Origin: an uncultured Clostridium sp.
Lineage (GTDB): Bacteria; Bacillota; Clostridia; Clostridiales; Clostridiaceae
Direction: 5' to 3'
DNA length: 63,510 bases
Assembly: GCA_903789665.1 (NCBI GenBank)
Contig: CAIFEX010000020.1
Span: 1 to 63,510 of the forward strand
Positions within the stretch are counted from its first letter, which is position 1, and each line of letters opens with the position of its first letter. Shown here one piece after another: positions 38,314-42,866 of the stretch. The position numbers were made by a program, and so were the translations under genes. The notes beneath the pieces were generated by a model. It was not told the origin of the DNA, searched no databases, and was given only the letters and a program-made list of their open reading frames with translations.

Positions 38314-38336
38314 AATTTTGTTTTAATTACTTTATT

Positions 38337-38369
38337 GGAGATGACATGAAAATTTATAATGTCATCTCC
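38337..38369. terminator. Hairpin between convergent genes
   Basis: GGAGATGACAT (38337-38347) pairs perfectly with ATGTCATCTCC (38359-38369) over an 11-nt loop. It probably serves both the hydrolase gene and the sulfite reductase operon, although neither flank has a long T-run. Confidence 0.6.
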
Positions 38370-38393
38370 CTGTTAATTGAAAATGAATTTATG

Positions 38394-40706
38394 TCATTTT
38401 TTTTGAACTACGAGCAGATTATAACCATTGTAATTTGCATCCGTAGAAATTATTTTGTTTCCCTCTTTTTTTACACTTTGCGGAACATTGTTTATAGGGT
38501 CGCCGTCATCTAGGTAAAATCCTACTTTTTGTCCGGATTTTATCTTGGAAAGTTCTATCTTTACTTTTACAAAGTTCATAGGGCATTTTACCCCTCTCAG
38601 ATCCACAATTTTGAAATCTGAAGTTTTATTCCGGCTGTTAACTTCACAGCTGTTTTCATTTTTTTCTTTTGGAAGTGTTATTTCCAGCTTCCCGTTCAGG
38701 GATTTGTACATGGCCTCTACTTTGTTGTAGAGATATTCAACTTCAGGTGCTTTAGATGATATGTCATTTGTCCCGTCAATTTTATAGTCTATAAGATCCT
38801 GAAACAATTTTTTAATTGAAGATTTGACATAGCCCGTTTCTATAAAGTTCCTGTTGAATTCTTCAAATATTTCCCTGTCTTTGTTGGAATCCACCCCTCT
38901 GAGTACCAGAAGAGTCCTTGCTGAAGACAATGCGGAAGAGTATAGATCTGAGTTTTGTTTTGTATTCTTGTACCTTTCCAGTGATGATTTTGCATTTGAC
39001 AGATCAAGTTTTATGATGTCCATTACACCCGAACTGCATTCTCCAGGTCCGCGGCCTTTCAGTGAAAATTTTTCACAGGCTCCGAAATCAAAATATATAT
39101 CCGGATCTTCAACAAATTTATCCACATTGGTGTATTTGTTTATAAGCTGTTGTATGTCTTCGGATTTGTTGCCCAAAAAATCATAAAAATTTTCATGCCC
39201 GGAATTTAATTTCAGTTTGGCAAGCTCATATATGAATAACGGTACTTTCTTTACAGGAACATCCCCATAATCATCCCCCATTCTGGCTATATTTGATCCC
39301 ACTTTACCTCCAAAGGATATGGAATACATAGGTACGAGCCCATTTTTCGTACGCTTGGCTCTTCCATGAAGGCCTATGGCACCTTTTTCATGCTGGGCAC
39401 AGGAATTTGGACAGCATGATATAAACAATCTTGGCAGTGCATCTCTTAATTCAGATGAGGCACCTTCAAATTTTTTCTTTATGGCTTTTAAAAGATTTTG
39501 TGAAAGACATAATCCAAGCTGGCAGGTGGAGGCGCCAACACAGGTTACAGAATTGTCTATATTGTATATGGAAGTAAAGGTACCCGTTATTTTTATGAGG
39601 TCTTCAGCATCTTTTTTCTTTAAATCCCTTATAAAAAAGCCCTGGGTATTTGTGACCCTGATGGATATTTCATAGTTCAATTTTTCTATAAAATCAAAGA
39701 CTTTATTTAAATTTTCCACTTTTAGATTCCCACTTTGAGGATGAATGTAAACAGAATAATAACCTTTCTGTTTCTGTGGGAACAGTACATTTCTGAATTT
39801 CCTGTCTACTTTTATATCTCGGACTATTTTAGCATCGGAATGCAGTATAAATTCATTTTCATCCACTTGTATGTTGAGATCGCCTTTTTTCTTTAATTTG
39901 CGTATTTCCCCTTCTAATTCTTCAACAAATTTTTTTTCACCCAATCTCATGAGTATGAATCTTATTCTGGCTTTGTTTTTGTTGGTTCTGTCTCCCTCTG
40001 ATTCAAATACGTTTTTAAGACCCTGTATATAGTAGAGTATTTCATCTGCAGGTATAAAATTACTTAATTTTAAAGCTACTCTTGGGCTTCCGCCGAATCC
40101 TCCGGCTCCATATACCTCAAAACCCCTTTTGTCATTCACTATTTTTGCAATAAAACCTAGATCTGATATGGTTGCATTGCCTGTATCTTTTGAGCTGTTG
40201 GAAAAGCCTATTTTGTATTTTCTGGGCATATTCATGGTAGTTGGATCTTTTATGAGATAGTTAGTAGCTGCCTTCATGTAAGGTGTCACGTCAAAGACGT
40301 CATCTATTGAAACACCTGAAAGAGGGGAACACTCCACGTTTCGTACGGTATTTCCACCAGTGCCCTTTGTTATTATGCCAACTTCTATAAGAGAATTTAA
40401 TATTGGATAGGCATCTTTTAAATCCACACTTTGAAATTGAATGTCCTGTCTGGAGGTGAATTTCAATTTACCTTTTGAATATTTTTCGGCCAACTTGCTT
40501 ATATGTTTGAACTGCTTTAAGGATATGACCCCTCCCGGTATCCTGGTTCTTACCATGTAGGTTTCTTTTTTCCTCTGTTCATATACCCCCATGGAAACCC
40601 TGAAGGCTTTAAATCTTACGGGATCTATTTTATCATTTAAATATTCTTCAGACTTTTCTTTTATGTCTTCTATGGATTTGTAATGATCTTCATTTATTTC
40701 TATCAT
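38394..40706 (-). CDS. Siroheme sulfite (nitrite) reductase fused to a TusA domain
   Basis: Ferredoxin-type assimilatory reductase with two half repeats and the 4Fe-4S/siroheme cysteines C389-x5-C395 and C432-x3-C436 (CVGASTC; CCPNSC). After about residue 690 a full TusA/SirA sulfur-carrier domain follows, with the conserved GVKCPMNFVKVKIEL. Reduction of sulfite to sulfide coupled to sulfur handover is the natural reading; nitrite reduction is possible but the operon argues for sulfur. It is the last gene of a minus-strand operon thiS-thiF-JAMM-reductase under a SAM-I riboswitch. 770 residues is longer than the usual 500-600 because of the fusion and a linker. AAGGAG precedes ATG 40706. Confidence 0.85.
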   Translation of the reverse strand: MIEINEDHYKSIEDIKEKSEEYLNDKIDPVRFKAFRVSMGVYEQRKKETYMVRTRIPGGVISLKQFKHISKLAEKYSKGKLKFTSRQDIQFQSVDLKDAYPILNSLIEVGIITKGTGGNTVRNVECSPLSGVSIDDVFDVTPYMKAATNYLIKDPTTMNMPRKYKIGFSNSSKDTGNATISDLGFIAKIVNDKRGFEVYGAGGFGGSPRVALKLSNFIPADEILYYIQGLKNVFESEGDRTNKNKARIRFILMRLGEKKFVEELEGEIRKLKKKGDLNIQVDENEFILHSDAKIVRDIKVDRKFRNVLFPQKQKGYYSVYIHPQSGNLKVENLNKVFDFIEKLNYEISIRVTNTQGFFIRDLKKKDAEDLIKITGTFTSIYNIDNSVTCVGASTCQLGLCLSQNLLKAIKKKFEGASSELRDALPRLFISCCPNSCAQHEKGAIGLHGRAKRTKNGLVPMYSISFGGKVGSNIARMGDDYGDVPVKKVPLFIYELAKLKLNSGHENFYDFLGNKSEDIQQLINKYTNVDKFVEDPDIYFDFGACEKFSLKGRGPGECSSGVMDIIKLDLSNAKSSLERYKNTKQNSDLYSSALSSARTLLVLRGVDSNKDREIFEEFNRNFIETGYVKSSIKKLFQDLIDYKIDGTNDISSKAPEVEYLYNKVEAMYKSLNGKLEITLPKEKNENSCEVNSRNKTSDFKIVDLRGVKCPMNFVKVKIELSKIKSGQKVGFYLDDGDPINNVPQSVKKEGNKIISTDANYNGYNLLVVQKK

Positions 40707-40720
40707 AATTTCACTCCTTT

Positions 40721-41140
40721 TTAAATTATTTTGTATTCAGGTTTTTTAACATTTTTGTCCTTGTCAATTTTAAATAAGTTAAATACCGGCTTTTCTTTTT
40801 CAAGAGATAAAATTCCATATAATATTTTATCATCAAAAGCGAGCCTTTTATCTTCTTTGGATGGTCTGGAAGGTGAATACGGGTGGGAATGATAATTTCC
40901 AATCATACTGAGCTTTGCAGTTCTCATAAGTTTTACAGCTTTGAACTGTTCGGCGGGATCCATGGAAAAATGCTTACTGCTGTGATCCTTATTCGTCAAA
41001 ACATATATTTTTTTTATGAGAATATCTTCGCCGTGGTTTAATCCTGCAAGATAACCACAGCATTCATCTGGAAATTCATTTCTGGCCTGCTCTAAAATTT
41101 TTTTATACTGTAGTTTGTCTATATATATCATAACCGTCAC
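40721..41140 (-). CDS. JAMM/M67 metallopeptidase
   Basis: 139 residues with the JAMM zinc motif HSHPYSPSRPSKED (HxH-x10-D) and the early acidic PDECCGYLAG. Such bacterial enzymes cut residues after the Gly-Gly of ubiquitin-like sulfur carriers. GTG 41140 overlaps the thiF stop (GTGA); ATG 41131 is the alternative start. The partner carrier two genes upstream carries four extra residues after its glycines, just the substrate such a peptidase needs. Confidence 0.88.
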   Translation of the reverse strand: MTVMIYIDKLQYKKILEQARNEFPDECCGYLAGLNHGEDILIKKIYVLTNKDHSSKHFSMDPAEQFKAVKLMRTAKLSMIGNYHSHPYSPSRPSKEDKRLAFDDKILYGILSLEKEKPVFNLFKIDKDKNVKKPEYKII

Positions 41141-41967
41141 TTGCTCGATTTCTCTGTTTTAAGATCACAAGCAGCCTGCTTATAGTCTATCAATTTTTTT
41201 ATCGTGGGGTGATCACCGCATACTTTACAGCTTTTGTTTTTAGATACCTTTATTTTTCTAAACTCCATTTTAATCGCATCGTAAGTTAAAAGGTATCCGG
41301 CAAGATTGCTTCCAATTTTGAGTATGTACTTGAGAGCCTCTGTTGCCTGAAGTGTTCCTATAATTCCACCCATTACGCCCAGAACACCTGCTTCCCTGCA
41401 GCTTGGGACGACATTTGCTGGAGGCGGCGATTGAAAAATACATCTGTAGCATGGAGTGCCATTATCAGGTATGTAAGTGGTGAGCTGTCCTTGAAATCTT
41501 ATTATTCCCCCGTGGGAAAATGGTTTCTTGGAAAATACACAGGCATCATTTATTAAAAATTTGGCTGGAAAATTATCTGTACCATCTATTATGAAATCAT
41601 AGTCCTGATCTTTTATTATATCCAGTATATTGTTTGAATTTACAAGCTCATTATAAGTTATTACATTTACATCCGGATTCAATTTGTTTATGGTTTCCTT
41701 TCCGGATTGAACCTTGGGTTTTCCAACGTCTTTTGTCTGGTGTATTATCTGCCTTTGAAGATTTGAAAGATCAACTACGTCTCCATCTACGAGACCCAAA
41801 GTCCCCACTCCTGCAGCGGCAAGATACATTGCAGCCGGCGCTCCCAAACCTCCTGTACCTATTATGAGAATTTTTGAGTTCAAAAGTTTTTCCTGGCCTT
41901 CTACACCTACCTCAGACAGAATTATATGTCTTGAATATCTTTCTATCTGATCTTCGCTAAAATCCAA
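41137..41967 (-). CDS. ThiF/MoeB/HesA family carrier-activating enzyme
   Basis: E1-like enzyme that adenylates the C-terminal glycine of a ThiS-type carrier. It has the nucleotide motif GTGGLGAPAAMYLAAAGVG, the Arg finger region LSNLQRQIIHQTKDVG and two zinc CxxC pairs (CYRC, CKVC). 276 residues from TTG 41967, chosen because GGGAGG lies eight bases upstream; an ATG at 42009 would add 14 poorly family-like residues. It overlaps the thiS end by 11 bases. Confidence 0.9.
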   Translation of the reverse strand: MDFSEDQIERYSRHIILSEVGVEGQEKLLNSKILIIGTGGLGAPAAMYLAAAGVGTLGLVDGDVVDLSNLQRQIIHQTKDVGKPKVQSGKETINKLNPDVNVITYNELVNSNNILDIIKDQDYDFIIDGTDNFPAKFLINDACVFSKKPFSHGGIIRFQGQLTTYIPDNGTPCYRCIFQSPPPANVVPSCREAGVLGVMGGIIGTLQATEALKYILKIGSNLAGYLLTYDAIKMEFRKIKVSKNKSCKVCGDHPTIKKLIDYKQAACDLKTEKSSK

Positions 41968-42172
41968 TGTTTCCACCTCCCATGAAGTATAAAAAATCAA
42001 TCTTGTCATTTTCTTTTAAAACAGTACTGCTGAAATTGTTTCTGTCCACAAATTCATCGTTTAACTGTACGGAAACCATATCCGGCATTTTTACATTTTC
42101 TGTTTTTAAAACTTCTGTTACAGTCACCCCTTTCTTTATGTCCTTGCCTTTTCCATTAATTGTTACTTTCAT
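41957..42172 (-). CDS. ThiS-like sulfur carrier protein with C-terminal extension
   Basis: 71 residues of a beta-grasp carrier (MKVTINGKGKDIKKGVTVTE; KENDKIDFLYFMGGG). Carriers normally end in Gly-Gly so the terminus can be adenylated and turned into a thiocarboxylate; here GGG is followed by NIGF, so it must be trimmed, presumably by the JAMM peptidase encoded two genes later. The GGG codons double as the Shine-Dalgarno of thiF. AAGGAGGG precedes ATG 42172. A role in thiamine synthesis is less likely, as no thi genes are near and the leader is a SAM riboswitch. Confidence 0.85.
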   Translation of the reverse strand: MKVTINGKGKDIKKGVTVTEVLKTENVKMPDMVSVQLNDEFVDRNNFSSTVLKENDKIDFLYFMGGGNIGF

Positions 42173-42260
42173 AGTACCCTCCTTATTGATGAATATAGGA
42201 TTTTATCTTTTAACCGTTTTGGGAAAAAGACTTTATATTTATATCTTAAGACTTTGACAA

Positions 42261-42416
42261 AATAAAAAACTTTCCTGTTTTATAATTTACAAGAAAGTCA
42301 TTTTATAATTTTCTCATCTTTCAGGTAAATTATATAACCTGTTGGAATTGGCACCTTTGAAATAATCAGGTTGCCGGGCGTCATAGGGCCAGTCCCTCTG
42401 CCTCTCTTGATAAGAA
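42261..42416 (-). promoter_or_regulatory. SAM-I riboswitch (S-box) with terminator
   Basis: On the minus strand the aptamer runs 42416 to 42311: CTTATCAAGAGAGG, GAGGGACTGGCCC, GCCCGGCAACC and GGTGCCAATTCC are textbook S-box elements, and P1 closes by TTCTTATC with GATGAGAA. The expression platform is a terminator (42298-42269, ACTTTCTTG/CAGGAAAGT) with T-run at 42268-42261. High SAM should stop transcription of the carrier-protein/sulfite reductase operon, placing it in the methionine/cysteine regulon. Confidence 0.95.
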
Positions 42417-42436
42417 TTCAATATTTAATTTATTAA

Positions 42437-42466
42437 ATACTAACACATTTAAAATAAAATTGTCAA
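42437..42466 (-). promoter_or_regulatory. Promoter of the SAM-controlled operon
   Basis: On the minus strand TTGACA (42466-42461), an 18-nt spacer and TAGTAT (42442-42437) with TG upstream. It is back to back with the trp promoter, the -35 boxes only 17 bases apart. Confidence 0.75.
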
Positions 42467-42518: not shown

Positions 42519-42866
42519 TAATTCAATTTCTAAAACTTATGAGAGGAAAGAGTAGATAGAGGAATTTAGTTTAAGCGAGTCCGGGGCAGTGAGAGCCGGG
42601 TGCTGTAGCCTGTATTGAATGGGTCTTCGAGGTGCCCTGCGAAATGATAGTAGCAGGAGACGGTAGTCTACCGTTAAAAAGACAGGGTATCGAGTAAAAT
42701 CCGTACCTGAATGAGATAGTTTGTAAATAGGTGGTACAGCGAAATTTTGCATTTCGTCCTTTTGGATGGAATGCTTTTTTTGTTTATCAAAATCTATTTT
42801 TCAAATTAATAATGGGTGGCACCGCGGTCATTTCGTCCCAGTTTGTGGATGAAATGGCCTTTTTGC
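42519..42866 (+). promoter_or_regulatory. Tryptophan T-box with two tandem antiterminator/terminator modules
   Basis: Stem I carries AGAGTAGA and the specifier TGG (42620-42622, preceded by GAA), i.e. Trp. Two T-box sequences follow: AGGTGGTACAGCG (42729-42741) and GGGTGGCACCGCG (42814-42826). Each has its own terminator: 42749-42759 with 42764-42774 and T-run, and 42826-42838 with 42847-42859 and T-run. Only about 30 bases separate the first terminator from the second T-box, too few for another Stem I. Low charged tRNA-Trp should switch on trpEGDCFBA. Confidence 0.92.

Follow-up and report, generated by a model that had tools for sequence, protein, structure and literature searches.

A SAM-I riboswitch and a putative protein-thiocarboxylate operon with a reductase-TusA fusion, without an adjoining metY, in an uncultured Clostridium sp.

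Known carrier-based sulfur systems and the clostridial operon

The CysO/Mec+/CysM system of Mycobacterium tuberculosis consists of a carrier protein, a JAMM peptidase and a pyridoxal phosphate (PLP) enzyme, and its product is cysteine. The biochemistry of the protein-thiocarboxylate route to homocysteine is said to come from a study of HcyS in Wolinella, whose gene cluster reportedly already contains a sulfite reductase and whose carrier reportedly ends in a tail of one Ala. Here we describe an operon of this type in a stretch of 63,510 nucleotides from an uncultured Clostridium sp. of the family Clostridiaceae (GenBank assembly GCA_903789665.1, contig CAIFEX010000020.1; hereafter the window). 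Its four minus-strand genes encode, in this order, a ThiS/HcyS-like sulfur carrier, an E1-like adenylyltransferase, a JAMM peptidase and a reductase fused to TusA, behind an S-adenosylmethionine (SAM)-I riboswitch (S-box). The Wolinella pathway is cited in the available parts of PMC6225789 and PMC5764234. A related gene set appears in row 4e of Iyer et al. 2006 (PMC1779556), the available part of which lists a ThiS/MoaD-like protein, JAB, an E1 lacking rhodanese, SirA, a sulfite reductase and an O-acetylhomoserine sulfhydrylase, names low-GC Gram-positive hosts among others (Alkaliphilus metalliredigenes, C. thermocellum, Desulfitobacterium hafniense and others), and mentions a fusion of ThiS to the reductase in actinobacteria.

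The operon in the window is like row 4e in its ThiS/MoaD-like carrier, its JAB peptidase, its E1, in which Pfam matched no rhodanese domain, its SirA and its sulfur assimilation gene. The class of system is already known from Iyer et al. 2006, and our locus is a clostridial variant of it. The SAM riboswitch and the reductase-SirA fusion are not mentioned for row 4e in the available part of that paper (PMC1779556). Our searches of an open-access library turned up neither the S-box link nor the reductase-TusA fusion, which is weak evidence of absence, and the available parts of PMC3766115, PMC2940859 and PMC10418091 do not mention this operon. With the Wolinella HcyS route it shares a tailed carrier, an E1, a JAMM peptidase and a sulfite reductase, MetY being shared by its relatives only. 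It differs from that route in the fusion of the reductase to a HEPN-like helical bundle and TusA, in the NIGF tail of the carrier, in the S-box and in the lack of a dedicated metY. The logic of carrier, JAMM peptidase and PLP enzyme is also that of the mycobacterial CysO system, unlike which the clostridial operon is linked to metY in relatives and placed under SAM control. Like the SAM-I regulons of Firmicutes, it has an S-box of the terminator type ahead of genes for sulfur amino acids, and it differs from them in the target operon.

The riboswitch aptamer lies at 42311..42416 on the minus strand (Rfam RF00162, 96.3 bits against a gathering cut-off of 44.4, E 5.7e-22). The minimum free energy fold of positions 42255-42420 of that strand (z -3.46) contained P1 and a strong hairpin with a U-run (42262..42306, minus strand), and this predicted expression platform is of the classical terminator type. 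From the riboswitch and the terminator, the operon would apparently be shut down at high SAM. All four following open reading frames (ORFs) are intact, lie on the minus strand and have Pfam matches above the cut-off: the carrier of 71 amino acids (41957..42172; ThiS, 44.9 bits), the HcyF/MoeB/ThiF-like E1 (41137..42009; ThiF, 286.6 bits, with the invariant residues), the HcyD/Mec+-like JAMM/JAB metallopeptidase (40721..41140; Prok-JAB, 85.0 bits) and the fused reductase of 770 amino acids (38394..40706). Rfam, the fold and Pfam thus bear out the first-pass annotation, made from the letters of this stretch, which had described four minus-strand genes behind a canonical SAM-I riboswitch. Its claim that the riboswitch ties the operon to methionine/cysteine supply rather than to thiamine holds for methionine; the switch is of the SAM and not of the thiamine pyrophosphate (TPP) type.

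Upstream, on the plus strand and back to back with the S-box, we observed at 42530-42840 a T-box leader before trpE (92.4 bits, cut-off 93) and, directly after it, a second, partial T-box (19.7 bits), so that a tandem T-box is likely.

Linkage to metY in relatives and its absence from the window

We observed the full-length fused reductase in 20 of 194 genomes of the family, our own included, in 9 of the 13 genomes of the genus, and in a single additional genome of the wider class (G273; 391 genomes). A scan of wider genome contigs returned 15 loci, 11 of them from genomes already in the set; the additions were Geosporobacter and two Thermincola bins (one truncated where its contig ends), which also have the fusion, and one Alkaliphilus, in which the reductase is unfused.

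The first-pass annotation had proposed looking for the same gene order beside metY in other genomes. In each of the other 19 fusion-bearing genomes of the family, the reductase gene is directly followed on the same strand by a dedicated metY, with spacings that range from an overlap of 44 bases (by the drawn starts) to a gap of 170 bases. Geosporobacter also has metY directly behind the same four genes, and in Thermincola a cysK-like gene lies between the reductase and metY (here and below, the labels CysK, CysD/N, ROK, SUF, trpB and thiG were given by eye where no family call is stated; one ROK label was given by family). The operon MetYs of these 19 genomes, Geosporobacter and Thermincola form one group (support 100/99) apart from the canonical MetY. 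Because metY adjoins the same four genes in relatives, the parallel with a homocysteine-forming system is well supported. The likeness to HcyS/HcyF/HcyD drawn in the first-pass annotation therefore stands, by gene content and by metY linkage, but not as a new kind of system. Several clusters continue into genes for adenylylsulfate kinase and adenylylsulfate (APS) reductase (by family in L099, by eye in the others), which is assimilatory sulfate reduction. In C. psychrophilum (L096:10457-11323), the E1 of the five-gene operon reads as two ORFs; the gene is either broken or misread in sequencing.

The window itself contains no metY. When it was searched by tblastn with a relative's MetY, no remnant was found (best E 0.13, inside another gene), and its only PALP match is trpB, judged by its place among trp genes; the earlier statement that no MetY or CysK acceptor is present in the window was thus correct. 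In strain BL-3 and C. luticellarii, metY has the reductase on one side and a convergent metallo-hydrolase gene on the other. These two neighbours are kept in the window, 80 bases apart (junction at 38314..38393, placed by alignment with these two relatives and by the gaps there), and its metallo-hydrolase is 77% and 71% identical to the copies of BL-3 and C. luticellarii, respectively. Since these two nearest relatives carry metY exactly at this junction, the operon metY was probably lost in our lineage. By gene content our operon would be like the front half of an HcyS-type pathway, and we claim the complete gene set only for the relatives. As the dedicated acceptor gene is gone from this lone exception in the family, the closing step of the homocysteine route cannot be assumed in this genome.

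The genome retains a canonical MetY above the TIGR01326 cut-off, behind an S-box of its own and next to a metH-like gene that also has its own S-box; the operon MetY of BL-3 scores below that cut-off. A canonical MetY, 80-95% identical to ours, occurs besides the operon MetY in all 19 relatives (a contig end cuts the G046 copy), and therefore the dedicated enzyme was lost here and not exchanged for another. The genome also has a metA-type gene and 8 PALP matches, trpB included. The canonical MetY is the best remaining acceptor. The score of 3ri6, which we take to be the Wolinella MetY, was dropped as a discriminator of operon and canonical MetY because it was equal for both.

In the genus, the S-box lies upstream on the same strand in 9 of 9 operon-bearing genomes, directly in 7 of them (134-266 bases before the carrier) and with one gene between in 2. 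Outside the genus it was observed at only 1 of 11 family loci, with one gene between (counts at the gathering cut-off, in the fetched stretch of each locus). From this difference, the S-box on the operon is a trait of this genus.

We also recorded other S-boxes, of which our genome has 14. One (C3:69372-69489, L017; 77.7 bits) lies ~500 bases before a SUF-like operon, with an ORF of 53 amino acids between. Another heads a run of SsuABC-like transporter genes in contig C6 (L010:449-14504), followed by two nitrogenase-like D/K sets, an H-like gene that reads as two overlapping frames and MetNIQ-like genes, with a metK behind an S-box and a gene for NifB close by (D-like, NifB and SsuA labelled by family, the rest by eye); this locus possibly serves a SAM-controlled, methylthio-alkane reductase-like methionine supply. 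In C. luticellarii a second S-box also occurs beside the operon (L082:13459-13565), with metK among the following genes. In BL-3 a second, divergent S-box beside the operon precedes apparent sulfonate-type ABC transporter genes (L081:13384-17844). These are a possible source of sulfite in BL-3, and none were seen beside the operon in the window.

Conserved features of the four proteins

The carrier ends in FMGGG-NIGF, so that residues indeed extend beyond the Gly-Gly, as the first reading of the sequence had it. Four residues follow the GGG in all 23 related carriers (19 of 19 family relatives, Geosporobacter, two Thermincola bins and G273), which had been picked without demanding a tail, and most of these tails end in GF or GL. 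A tail after Gly-Gly is a property of HcyS-type carriers, and a thiamine ThiS ends at Gly-Gly and is found with thi genes. Our genome has a second ThiS elsewhere, beside a thiG-like gene, which ends at GGG.

The E1 gene adjoins that of the carrier, as in HcyS-type loci. The E1 ORF as drawn is probably 14 codons too long; a likelier start is the TTG at 41967, directly after GGAGG. As this start falls within the last codons of the carrier, the two genes are likely to overlap and to be coupled. The JAMM gene likely starts at the ATG at 41131. Its motif residues, E, HSH, S and D, are those of JAMM peptidases; they are intact and identical in all 6 sequences aligned, which would suit an HcyS-type peptidase. 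The closest solved chain by sequence is 2kks.

The fused protein carries NIR_SIR, NIR_SIR_ferr and TusA (58.1 bits) on one ORF. In the alignment of 14 fused reductases, C389, C395, C432 and C436 and the PRKYK stretch are invariant; the four cysteines belong to the cluster and PRKYK to the substrate site. Of these positions, C432 is adjoined by a window-only change, G431C. Alignments with solved structures showed PRKYK in our reductase and in 1zj8, and PRKWN in the wild-type tobacco nitrite reductase. An Asn ending PRKWN at the active site marks nitrite reductases, and our reductase has a lysine there. The PDB name of 1zj8 is nitrite reductase NirA; despite this name, it is reported to be a sulfite reductase. 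As the closest solved chains by whole-sequence score are nitrite reductases, the sulfite reading rests on the PRKYK residues and the gene company. These active-site lysines and the gene company speak for sulfite rather than nitrite as the substrate, and a nitrite reductase was rejected on the PRKYK stretch. The cluster would then contain the sulfite reductase of an HcyS-type system. The earlier claim that the sulfide source is built in is overstated: it amounts to a fusion and not to a new part, as the Wolinella cluster reportedly already has a sulfite reductase. In other genomes of the family (L066, L067 and L100), S-boxes lie directly before unfused sulfite reductases of ~550 amino acids that are 53-56% identical to the fused one.

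The TusA domain spans residues 699-766 (38409..38612, minus strand). The usual motif of TusA is CPxP; here it reads CPMN, with C708 invariant and the asparagine N711 in place of the second proline in 14 of 14 fused reductases. In a Foldseek search with the fusion model, the top ranks were TusA-type proteins, and E. coli TusA was among the matches. The linker between the reductase and TusA (residues 541-690 submitted) had no Pfam match at E values up to 1. In an AlphaFold2 model (13 sequences; mean predicted local distance difference test (pLDDT) 73, predicted template modelling (pTM) score 0.56), residues 558-668 (38703..39035, minus strand) form a helical bundle, and the all-helical Foldseek matches of highest rank are proteins with HEPN domains (2hsb, E 0.054, template modelling (TM) score by target 0.65), with several HepT chains ranking near 2hsb. 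These matches weakly suggest that the modelled bundle is HEPN-like. Directly before it, C557 in GEC is invariant in the 14 fused reductases.

Possible routes for the carrier-bound sulfur

Building on the genes, the riboswitch, the conserved residues, the metY linkage in relatives and its absence here, we consider it fairly probable that the operon is a clostridial protein-thiocarboxylate route that has lost its own metY, with the canonical MetY most likely taking over. We infer from the sequences each chemical step of this route and the MetY that may serve it. At low SAM, transcription would read through the terminator. The reductase would convert sulfite to sulfide, or to a TusA-bound persulfide, the JAMM peptidase would trim the NIGF tail, and E1 would adenylate the exposed glycine of the carrier. 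Sulfur from the reductase/TusA would then replace AMP to give the carrier thiocarboxylate (carrier-COSH). A PLP sulfhydrylase would add carrier-COSH to O-acetylhomoserine, from which the JAMM peptidase would then free homocysteine. In relatives this sulfhydrylase would be the dedicated MetY at the operon end; here the canonical, S-box-controlled MetY would take over, on carrier-bound sulfur or on free sulfide.

Several observations weigh against this explanation. No operon-type MetY was found in our genome (best matches 42% identical). The canonical MetY is only distantly related to the operon MetY, and all 19 relatives have both; presumably, therefore, the canonical enzyme serves a different purpose. 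The chain 3ri6 did not separate the two types (294 and 293 bits). The genome has no match to PF01507 (CysD/CysH); sulfate activation by CysD and reduction by CysH are thus not encoded in their usual form, and another source must supply the sulfite. In G273, no metY-like ORF lies within 32 kb of the fused cluster. Finally, the window proteins carry 8 substitutions at columns that are otherwise invariant in 17-20 sequences, compared with 1, 2 and 1 in three relatives (17 of 20 carriers and 19 of 20 E1 sequences were included), and these could mean decay; one of the eight, E1 T203S, recurs in Thermincola.

In a rival explanation, the operon after the loss of metY would act only as a sulfite reductase that supplies free sulfide to the canonical MetY and CysK, and the carrier, E1 and JAMM peptidase would be relics undergoing loss. 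The loss of metY itself and the presence of the canonical MetY and of cysK-type (PALP) genes agree with this, and so does the number of amino acid changes of the window lineage at sites fixed in six outgroups, 21 compared with 9 or 11 in two relatives, when 4-fold sites gave 22 compared with 36 or 39 (Fisher p 0.0066, 0.0087). However, the same tendency appears in 15 control genes of the obg region (out of 24 window ORFs with any match, the ones present in the window, in both relatives and in each of the six outgroups; own amino acid versus 4-fold p 0.037), and the excess in the operon over these controls was not significant (p 0.28, 0.11). Relaxed selection after the metY loss was therefore rejected as unproven. 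Moreover, all ORFs are intact, the catalytic residues are kept, and the ratio of nonsynonymous to synonymous substitutions (dN/dS) is ~0.07, with values of 0.054-0.113 when each of the four genes in the window is compared with its counterparts in the two nearest relatives (rough values, as dS is near 1). Decay of the four genes may or may not have set in, and we regard the relic explanation as rather unlikely. We give slightly more room, still as a doubtful possibility, to a rewired pathway in which carrier-COSH, made through the reductase-HEPN-TusA relay, goes to a general sulfhydrylase (canonical MetY/CysK) that presumably uses free sulfide in relatives. Rerouting of the thiocarboxylate to another acceptor, such as a CysK-type enzyme for cysteine, appears improbable. 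It would fit G273, where a cysK-like gene lies ~3 kb upstream of E1, the cysK-like gene in Thermincola, and the homologue of one of our PALP genes (on contig C3) that lies upstream of the carrier, besides metY, at 4 of 19 family loci (L089, L090, L092 and L096); our own 8 PALP matches leave candidates for it. Our genome, however, has no cysK-like gene on the contig stretch of the operon, and an S-box senses SAM, which is a better fit to methionine than to cysteine.

Two further functions of the carrier genes were rejected. Ubiquitin-like (SAMP-like) protein tagging, with the JAMM peptidase as a desampylase, has very little to recommend it: the best NCBIfam match of the JAMM protein is indeed a desampylase (67.2 of 130 bits) and the second-best of E1 is UbaA (338.2 of 450), but both fall below the cut-off, and the constant linkage to the sulfite reductase-TusA gene and, in relatives, to metY, as well as the S-box control, argue against it. 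Still less credible is a thiamine sulfur system. The carrier does score above the cut-off of TIGR01683 ThiS (61.8 bits), but it has the NIGF tail, the second ThiS lies beside the thiG-like gene, no thi genes were recognised at the operon, and its riboswitch binds SAM rather than TPP.

Under the favoured loss of the dedicated metY, our genome and its relatives provide a clean pair with and without that enzyme, in which one can ask what it does beyond the canonical MetY. If the rewired pathway were true, it would be a natural experiment on whether an ordinary enzyme can use carrier-bound sulfur. The putative thiocarboxylate route is tied to a SAM riboswitch in clostridia, C. tyrobutyricum and C. 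luticellarii among them, and the design of reductase and TusA in one chain extends to Geosporobacter and Thermincola.

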